Assembly: GCA_014859725.1 (NCBI GenBank)
Contig: JACUTQ010000004.1
Coordinates: forward strand, 1 to 41,962
Reading direction: 5' to 3'
Length of the DNA: 41,962 bases
Source of the DNA: Methanosarcinales archaeon
GTDB lineage: Archaea > Halobacteriota > Methanosarcinia > Methanosarcinales > Methanocomedenaceae
Shown: positions 39,958 through 41,962 of the stretch, piece by piece
Numbering within the stretch: the stretch's first letter is position 1
Layout of the letters: every line of letters begins with the position of its first letter
Position numbers and translations under genes: made by a program
Notes under the pieces: generated by a model
Told to the model about the DNA's origin: nothing
The model's database searches: none
What the model saw: only the letters and a program-made list of their open reading frames with translations

Positions 39958-40146
39958 ATGGTTGAACTTGATAAAGAACAGGAAAAAGCGTTCGTGGATG
40001 AGCTGATGGAATCAAATGAGCTAAAAGGGGCCACAAAGAAGCGGCTGATCAAATTCCTGGGCAACAAGTACGACTGGGACAAGCAAAAGGTCCAGTTCAG
40101 GCTGACCAGGGCGCTGATTGCCGAGCGATACGCTGCCAGTCATTAG
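39958..40146 (+). CDS. Conserved-looking 62-residue protein closing the hdr/fdh operon
   Basis: A small, highly charged, helical protein (MVELDKEQEKAFVDELMESN, later KKRLIKFLGNKYDWDKQKVQ) with no cysteines. It starts 1 base after the Mo protein stop, with GGAGGG 6-7 bases upstream, so it is certainly part of the operon and translated. The pattern of two helices joined by a GNKYDWDK turn resembles a small winged or adaptor domain, but I do not recognise it. It may be an assembly factor or stabilising subunit of the complex. Confidence 0.65.
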   Translation: MVELDKEQEKAFVDELMESNELKGATKKRLIKFLGNKYDWDKQKVQFRLTRALIAERYAASH

Positions 40147-40157
40147 TAAATACATCT

Positions 40158-40175
40158 GGGGGAGTATACTCCCCC
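40158..40175. terminator. Perfect palindrome after the hdr/fdh operon
   Basis: GGGGGAGTATACTCCCCC is an 18-base perfect palindrome 12 bases after the last stop codon. It is GC-rich at both ends and sits where the operon should end. There is no long T-run after it, so it may protect the 3' end or act as a regulator site instead of a classical terminator. Confidence 0.6.
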
Positions 40176-40205: not shown

Positions 40206-40258
40206 GTTACCAGCATTGATAACAATTAAATATGATTTGTTACTAATGTTGATAACAA
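40206..40258. repeat. Pair of 20-bp direct repeats, operator candidate
   Basis: GTTACCAGCATTGATAACAA (40206-40225) and GTTACTAATGTTGATAACAA (40239-40258) match at 16 of 20 positions and are 33 bases apart start to start (about three helical turns). Each is itself a loose palindrome (GTTA...TAAC). They lie about 85 bases before the next gene, just upstream of a TTTAAG element (40263-40268), so they probably bind a regulator of the accessory genes to the right. Confidence 0.55.
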
Positions 40259-40341: not shown

Positions 40342-40674
40342 ATGGAAGTAAATACTTCTACAGGAGTAATTCTAAAATTAGTAGAATTTCTAAAAGAAAT
40401 ACATTCGAAAGAATTACTTGAAATTACAAAAAAATTAAAGGAAACATTCGAGATTCAATTATATGCCTATAAAGTAGATTATACTGGAAAAATCAATTCT
40501 GCAGATTATTGGAATGATATTTCTTTATTGGCCTCAAGTGATTTAATTAAATTAACTGGAGATAATCCAAAATTATCTATAACCGATCGAGGTTTAAATA
40601 CAATACAAGAACTAGAATTAGAATTACCTACTCAGATTAATGAAGTACTACCACAAATATCCCAGAGAGGCTAG
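40342..40674 (+). CDS. Hypothetical 110-residue protein, winged-helix-like
   Basis: The protein begins MEVNTSTGVILKLVEFLKEI and ends with an acidic tail. The middle (YWNDISLLASSDLIKLTGDN, PKLSITDRGLNTIQELE) resembles the recognition helix and wing of small archaeal winged-helix proteins, where 'L-S-ITDRG' often occurs. It could be the regulator that binds the direct repeats just upstream. GGAGGG lies 10 bases before ATG. Composition is far more AT-rich than in the hdr operon, suggesting transfer. It is closely followed by the membrane-protein gene and the HD-domain gene. Confidence 0.5.
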   Translation: MEVNTSTGVILKLVEFLKEIHSKELLEITKKLKETFEIQLYAYKVDYTGKINSADYWNDISLLASSDLIKLTGDNPKLSITDRGLNTIQELELELPTQINEVLPQISQRG

Positions 40675-40676
40675 GT

Positions 40677-41123
40677 TTGCAATTGTTTTTAAAGAAATGT
40701 ATTCAAAGGAATTACTTGAAATTAACAATTAAGTGGTATAGATTTTCTAATAATTGGGCAGTATTTATTCCAATATCAGCTATAATCCTAACATTAATTT
40801 TAGCTATCTTAACTGTACCTATTCAAATAAAAATAGCCCTTTGGATAGTTGTCATGCTTTATTTATTAGTCATAGATCAAATATTTTATTTAACATTGTG
40901 TGATGTTGTTAAGGAAAATATAAATAAAGGAAATTATGATGAAATTATAACTAAAATAATATCATTTTTAATTGAAATTAATATTTCTGGTAAAATTAGC
41001 GTGAATAAAGATGAAATCTTTAAAAATGTTTGTAATAAAAATTTTGGTAATGTATCTAGATTGGAATCCAAAAAAATTAATTGTATCCTTCATTTACTGA
41101 AAAGACAACATTATTTACAATAA
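40677..41123 (+). CDS. Hypothetical membrane protein, two transmembrane helices
   Basis: The clear part of this protein has two hydrophobic segments (WAVFIPISAIILTLILAILT and IALWIVVMLYLLVIDQIFYL) followed by a soluble C-terminal domain of about 70 residues (VKENINKGNYDEIITKIISF...). The frame opens with TTG at 40677 without a good ribosome site. In a second frame ATG 40697 gives MYSKELLEINN and stops; removing one T near 40728 joins this to KWYRFSNNWAVF, which reads like a natural N-terminus. The segment encoding KEMYSKELLEIN duplicates part of the preceding gene. No family recognised. Confidence 0.45.
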   Translation: MQLFLKKCIQRNYLKLTIKWYRFSNNWAVFIPISAIILTLILAILTVPIQIKIALWIVVMLYLLVIDQIFYLTLCDVVKENINKGNYDEIITKIISFLIEINISGKISVNKDEIFKNVCNKNFGNVSRLESKKINCILHLLKRQHYLQ

Positions 41124-41146
41124 TCTAAAACATGGGGTGGATGTAT

Positions 41147-41962
41147 ATGACTGAATATAATTTTGATAAGAAACTCACAGAATTGGCTTCAAAAGCAAAG
41201 GATGAATATATATTATCAAAAATAAATAAGGAAACAAGAGTACCCACTAGAGATTTTTCAAAAGAGGATTTGGAGGCTCTCCTAGATTCTTTTATAAGTA
41301 GATACGATATATCTCTAGATAAATTCGACTCAACTAAAAAAACCAAAATAATACTACCGATTTATTCACAAATTGAATTAGAACCAAAATTATCTTACAT
41401 GTTTTATACACCTTATATTCAAAGAATGGCTTTTATAAAACAGCTTTCATTTTCTTACATGACATATCCTGGTGCGTTACATTCTCGTATTGAACATTCA
41501 TTGGGAGTATCGCATTTAATTGGTGTATTTTGTAATTTTTTACAAAAACATGATTCAAATTTAAATCAGGAAATTATTATATCTGCTAAAATAGCAGGTC
41601 TGCTTCATGATGCAGGCCATGGTCCTTGTGGACACTCTCTAGAACTATTAAAATCTTGTATTTCTCCAAAAAAGGGACAAGGAGATTTTCGAAAGCTAGA
41701 TAAGCTTTTGATATGTGATGAATTAAATAATAATAATTCAAATATAAGAAGAGCATTAGATAATATAGAAGTAGATTACAAGTTTATTGAACAATTATTG
41801 GGTTGTAATGAAGGAATTAATAATCAATTAATATACCTAACAGACCTTTTTGATTCTGCAATTGATGCAGATAGATTAGATTATTTGGCAAGGGATGCTA
41901 ATCATACATGGAAGGTGTCAATACATCGTGAACAAAAAAAGCTCGAAAAAGCTCAATACATC
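41147..41962 (+). CDS. HD-domain phosphohydrolase, dGTPase/SAMHD1-like (3' end outside window)
   Basis: The open frame runs off the right edge (272 codons seen). After an N-terminal region of about 75 residues it contains the COG1078-type signature: QRMAFIKQLSFSYMTYPGAL, HSRIEHSLGVSHL (His ligand), AGLLHDAGHGPCGHSLE (HD metal site) and LTDLFDSAIDADRLDYLARD (last Asp ligand). Enzymes of this kind hydrolyse dNTPs or nucleotide second messengers, and several act in antiviral defence. GGGGTGG lies 6 bases before ATG 41147, which decides the start over ATG 41141. It is the third gene of an AT-rich accessory group, so defence or stress signalling is a reasonable but unproven guess. Confidence 0.8.
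   Translation, partial: MTEYNFDKKLTELASKAKDEYILSKINKETRVPTRDFSKEDLEALLDSFISRYDISLDKFDSTKKTKIILPIYSQIELEPKLSYMFYTPYIQRMAFIKQLSFSYMTYPGALHSRIEHSLGVSHLIGVFCNFLQKHDSNLNQEIIISAKIAGLLHDAGHGPCGHSLELLKSCISPKKGQGDFRKLDKLLICDELNNNNSNIRRALDNIEVDYKFIEQLLGCNEGINNQLIYLTDLFDSAIDADRLDYLARDANHTWKVSIHREQKKLEKAQYI

Follow-up and report, generated by a model that had tools for sequence, protein, structure and literature searches.

The window analysed here, 41,962 nucleotides long, is the entire contig G000:C4 of a Methanosarcinales archaeon, and at its right end an hdr-type operon (50% GC) precedes three open reading frames (ORFs) that run in the same direction. ORF1 (40342..40674, + strand) encodes a small winged-helix-like protein of 110 aa, ORF2 (40677..41123, + strand) begins with TTG and encodes a membrane protein of 148 aa, and the 5' part of a third gene (41147..41908, + strand; about 254 codons) encodes a SAMHD1-like HD phosphohydrolase. 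The end of a mobile element (41909..41962) sits inside this HD gene, and the contig terminates within the element. An earlier note, made from the letters of this DNA, had described three same-strand genes with short gaps and foreign-looking composition. The ORF coordinates bear this out, neighbouring genes being separated by 2 and 8 bases (the latter counted to the listed HD start at 41132), and GC is 0.276 in ORF1, 0.219 in ORF2 and 0.292 in the HD gene, compared to 0.499 in the preceding operon gene. The HD gene has candidate starts at 41132 and 41147 (MTEYNFDKKL); the latter is more likely on sequence comparison, since it is aligned with the start of the HD gene of the archaeon GB37, described below.

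A terminator-like scan revealed a perfect hairpin, GGGGGAGTATACTCCCCC (40158..40175), where the hdr-type operon gives way to the cassette; it is a probable transcription boundary. Upstream of ORF1 on the + strand are two similar 20-base sites, GTTACCAGCATTGATAACAA (40206..40225) and, 33 bp past it, GTTACTAATGTTGATAACAA (40239..40258). Both are weak candidates that may serve as an ORF1 operator; a pair of 20-mers as alike was found in 6 of 200 order-1 Markov resamplings, only slightly beyond chance. The hdr-type operon is closed by a 62-aa small protein (39958-40146) with weak VF530 and linker-histone matches. In addition, a 34-base stretch of ORF1 (40393-40426) reappears near the start of ORF2 (40691-40724) with 88% identity and in another frame, perhaps as the result of a small duplication.

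The last 54 bases of the window (41909-41962) open with TGGAAGGTGTCAATACATCGTGAAC. The same terminus, starting with TGGAA, abuts different flanks at several contig ends in the sister genomes G003 and G011, where its copies carry two further copies of a 15-base box, and a variant of the terminus abuts unrelated sequence within the window genome (G000) too. Because these bases come from the end of a mobile element, the final ~18 residues of the listed ORF do not belong to the HD protein, whose frame breaks off after about residue 259 (254 when counting begins at 41147). A search for the C-terminal half elsewhere in this assembly was empty, which is not proof of its absence. Since the element interrupts the HD frame, the window copy of the cassette is probably inactive. 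An element end with repeated CAATACATCGTGAAC boxes also breaks contigs C107, C117, C193 and C215 of G003 and C619 of G011, members of the same archaeal family. A search of G003 and G011 for an IS21 IstB gene yielded neither such a gene nor an element to which this end could be assigned.

The HD protein of the window matches Pfam PF01966 (E 2e-5), is 72% identical to the 532-aa HD protein of GB37 and carries the catalytic motifs EH, HDxGHGPxGH and DxDRxDY. Four archaeal HD proteins, which we describe as one subfamily, have invariant H, HD, H, H and D residues within the motifs EH or CH, HDxxHxPxGH and DxDRxDY, and their metal and catalytic H...HD...D residues align with those of SAMHD1, the best solved relative (E 2e-35; the others are bacterial dNTPases). 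With the SAMHD1 residue numbering placed on the HD alignment, equivalents of Q149, R164, H167, H206/D207, H210, H215, D311, R366 and Y374 are kept. All three full-length relatives retain the R366 and Y374 equivalents, which contact the triphosphate and gate deoxy-sugars; the window copy ends upstream of this region. D137 and R145, guanine (GTP) allosteric residues of SAMHD1 itself and not of all superfamily members, are replaced in the profile alignment. The SAMHD1-like assignment of the earlier note agrees with the conserved motifs and with this alignment; the placement among SAMHD1-like dNTPases holds on sequence grounds, and dNTP hydrolysis is the predicted activity because the catalytic and deoxy-sugar gate residues are retained.

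Full-length members are 520-545 aa long, with a long divergent N-terminus. In a tree of 42 HD proteins, the four cassette proteins form one clade (SH-aLRT 100) on a long branch, separate from the common archaeal enzymes of 395-430 aa and 600-640 aa, the deep branching order being unreadable because this is a quick tree with long branches. Grouping with housekeeping enzymes had been named in the earlier note as evidence against its reading, and the HD protein instead occupies a clade of its own. The HD gene is under purifying selection (dN/dS 0.15, window versus GB37). Structure prediction gave unusable models for both the HD protein (mean pLDDT 45) and ORF1 (mean pLDDT 47) because the alignments are thin.

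The hydropathy profile of ORF2 displays two strong hydrophobic segments (residues 29-47 and 48-66), as expected from the earlier description of a two-helix membrane protein, and the predicted transmembrane helices are followed by a C-terminal tail of about 75 aa. This tail is predicted to be cytosolic because the N-terminus is basic and because of the positive-inside rule. The sequence of ORF2 is poorly conserved (E 0.003 between the window and Archaeoglobus sp. JdFR-27); its relatives agree in position, size and the two hydrophobic segments, and a short YDEI motif is common to the window and JdFR-27 proteins. ORF1 has 36% identity over 94 aa to its JdFR-27 counterpart (E 1e-17), a match to that of Candidatus Methanoperedens BLZ2 (E 1e-7) and 60% identity over 83 aa to a GB37 remnant. 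ORF1 is under purifying selection, with a dN/dS of 0.12 between the window and GB37 that was estimated from only 72 codons with near-saturated synonymous sites. No family in Pfam, NCBIfam or PADLOC covers ORF1 or ORF2; ORF1 has a weak Pfam match to DUF4364, and a Panacea (SocA, DUF4065) domain gave no Pfam match in ORF1 or its relatives.

The HD subfamily is found in four archaeal genomes: the window genome, Methanoperedenaceae archaeon GB37 (GoM-Arc1; G018), BLZ2 (G056) and JdFR-27. A profile search recovered the first three from 238 genomes of the class, with E-values of 1e-154 or better for members versus 1e-36 for the next matches, and the subfamily was found in one of 59 genomes of the class of JdFR-27. 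Both BLZ2 (112, 165 and 545 aa) and JdFR-27 (141, 162 and 522 aa) hold ORF1, the membrane protein and the HD gene in the same order and on the same strand. In GB37, the HD gene is intact (532 aa), and ORF1 and ORF2 are decayed and split over two places. The fragment before the HD gene consists of the C-terminal end of ORF2 (49% identity to the C-terminal 43 aa of the window protein) fused to transposase-like sequence, and about 128 kb away lie a relative of ORF1 and the first part of ORF2 (41% identity over 59 aa), with broken reading frames. DNA similarity to the window cassette follows the same division, from ORF1 to the ORF2 start at one place and from the ORF2 end to the HD gene at the other (69% over 277 bases and 76% over 864 bases, together most of the cassette). 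From the trios of BLZ2 and JdFR-27 and the remnants of GB37, it follows that ORF1 and ORF2 are, or once were, present in all four genomes that carry the HD gene. Across 394 genomes of the phylum, ORF1 finds strong matches only where the HD gene is present as well; there are also two weak matches (E 2e-5 and 3e-4), and in the genomes concerned the search found no member of the HD subfamily. The earlier note had set failure of the three genes to co-occur elsewhere as a test of refutation, and their joint presence in BLZ2 and JdFR-27, split and decayed in GB37, speaks for its grouping. The trio is a real conserved unit, rare and horizontally spread, that recurs among a few unrelated archaea. The intact HD gene of GB37, next to decayed ORF1 and ORF2, indicates that the three genes need not act together.

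The low GC content of the cassette is a feature of the other copies too (0.30 in BLZ2 versus about 0.44 around it; 0.32-0.36 in GB37 versus 0.50), and in JdFR-27 it is part of a 16-kb stretch with a GC of 0.29-0.38 compared to 0.41-0.45 elsewhere. Only the JdFR-27 copy has a defence-like neighbourhood, which includes Nmad2 (nucleotide modification), a radical SAM gene and, some 2 kb upstream of the trio, a nucleotidyltransferase/HepT pair (MntA/HepT; PADLOC PDC-S09, Pfam HepT-like). Around the BLZ2, GB37 and window copies lie ordinary metabolic genes or IS debris, and no defence genes stand out beside the BLZ2 and GB37 copies or on the left side of the window in ORF lists that were read and partly scanned. 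The defence role proposed in the earlier note has only indirect support, from sporadic spread, AT-rich islands and the MntA/HepT and Nmad2 genes of JdFR-27; the other loci show no clear defence neighbours. The radical SAM gene adjoining the JdFR-27 cassette (L077:1385-2706) has a DUF6375 partner and matches viperin and MoaA profiles below their cut-offs; viperin itself was rejected, as the score of 71 of 180 bits is far under the cut-off.

We found no described counterpart of the three-gene unit in the libraries and literature searched. SAMHD1 and the bacterial HD dNTP triphosphohydrolases (PDB 4bzc, 2o6i, 2hek, 2q14) share with the cassette protein the HD core, the catalytic and deoxy-sugar gate residues and the length (520-545 aa), whereas the cassette protein lacks D137 and R145, has a divergent long N-terminus, forms its own clade and is accompanied by relatives of ORF1 and ORF2. 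The anti-phage dGTPase system is a stand-alone gene. Like the cassette HD protein, this dGTPase (NCBIfam NF041026; PADLOC dGTPase) is an accessory, sporadic HD nucleotide hydrolase; the cassette proteins score 14-27 bits against NF041026 (cut-off 400) and 16-32 against TIGR01353 (cut-off 152), and their matches to the NCBIfam and PADLOC dGTPase models are limited to the HD motif. Clover, which consists of the dGTPase CloA and the nucleotidyltransferase CloB, also places an HD dNTPase effector within a multi-gene cassette (PMC12265719). In contrast to Clover, the cassette has membrane and winged-helix-like proteins in place of a CloB-type nucleotidyltransferase: none lies between or directly beside the BLZ2 or GB37 genes, and JdFR-27 has only the MntA/HepT pair. 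The words "transmembrane" and "archaea" are both absent from the text of the Clover paper (PMC12265719).

In three further archaeal HD clades (L061, L067, L071, L088, L090-L093 and L031), the gene immediately upstream of a SAMHD1-like HD gene encodes a small protein of 113-227 aa, in several cases with a GPYS motif. This pairing is recurrent, and a small protein with an HD protein may be a general arrangement. The cassette is set apart from these pairs by its intervening membrane gene, and the HD clades differ. We rejected homology of ORF1 to these partners, to which profile comparison showed no detectable similarity.

Most likely, the cassette represents a variant of defence by dNTP depletion, the defence role itself being something we infer. 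As a tentative reading, with slightly less than an even chance of being right, we propose a horizontally transferred defence cassette in which a SAMHD1-type dNTPase that lowers dNTPs is combined with a membrane partner and a DNA-binding-like regulator. The catalytic residues and relatives of the HD protein suggest that, once switched on, it would lower dNTPs and so starve a replicating virus or plasmid. That the guanine site has been lost suggests a trigger other than that of SAMHD1. ORF2 would be a membrane-anchored partner with both ends probably in the cytosol, which might either report the state of the membrane or of infection to the HD enzyme or serve as a second effector, and ORF1, small and DNA-binding-like, could regulate the operon. 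We are more doubtful of a bolder form of this proposal, namely an undescribed archaeal immune system of membrane-coupled dNTP depletion in which the two-helix protein controls, or is controlled by, the SAMHD1-like dNTPase under a dedicated winged-helix regulator.

The same genes might instead form a toxin-antitoxin-like unit, in which the HD protein, the two-helix protein or both are toxic and are directly neutralised by the small upstream protein. We consider this unlikely, although the small protein is the first gene of the operon, the three other archaeal HD clades have small upstream partners, one such partner family weakly matches a DNA ADP-ribosyl glycohydrolase chain (DarG-type antitoxin; E 0.03) and an MntA/HepT pair lies near the JdFR-27 copy. 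The intact HD frame of GB37, beside broken ORF1 and ORF2, would be unexpected for a toxin without its antitoxin and counts against a strict toxin-antitoxin pair, and ORF1 matches neither a Pfam antitoxin family nor, detectably, the other HD partners. A nucleotide-signalling unit is rather improbable. Here the two-helix protein would be gated by a special nucleotide, which the HD protein would degrade or remodel instead of acting on bulk dNTPs, much as cyclic nucleotides are used in defence systems with 2TM effectors. Such a unit would fit the pairing of the HD protein with a cytosolic-tailed membrane protein in every complete copy and a control that differs from that of SAMHD1, as the D137 and R145 equivalents are not kept; however, the cassette has no cyclase or other signal-making gene, and all three full-length HD proteins keep the Y374-type deoxy-sugar gate. 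SAMHD1-like HD enzymes are common housekeeping proteins, with at least one in 58 of 60 relatives, which could point to a housekeeping role here too, with a lineage-specific enzyme for dNTP sanitation, a regulator and a membrane gene that is unrelated to them. Occurrence in only four genomes, foreign composition, a separate clade and constant partners make this very improbable.

Animals (SAMHD1) and bacteria both use HD enzymes to deplete dNTPs in defence. If archaea have a conserved form of this strategy that is tied to a fixed membrane partner, it would bring in a layer of control undescribed in the literature searched. The hosts are archaea that oxidise methane and ethane, in which defence has received little study, and the complete copies of BLZ2 and JdFR-27 make the system directly testable.

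Scans of viral contigs with the HD and ORF1 alignments, and searches of phage and plasmid collections, returned no copy of the cassette. Matches by tblastn to plasmids and phages (Klebsiella prophage, Labrenzia, Sinorhizobium, Bacteroides, Thermomicrobium) were rejected as members of other HD clades, and the neighbourhoods inspected around plasmid and phage HD matches contained no ORF1 or ORF2. The Klebsiella prophage record holds a 510-aa HD protein of another clade (L042:2415-3947) that lies outside the integrase and is possibly host flank. Furthermore, Labrenzia and Sinorhizobium plasmids (L100:3788-7407 and L101:3626-7413) carry a recurrent operon of a radical SAM protein, a 3'-5' exonuclease, an AAA ATPase and an HD protein, and the Sinorhizobium copy adjoins a DncV-like cyclase and a ThiF gene in a CBASS-like arrangement.
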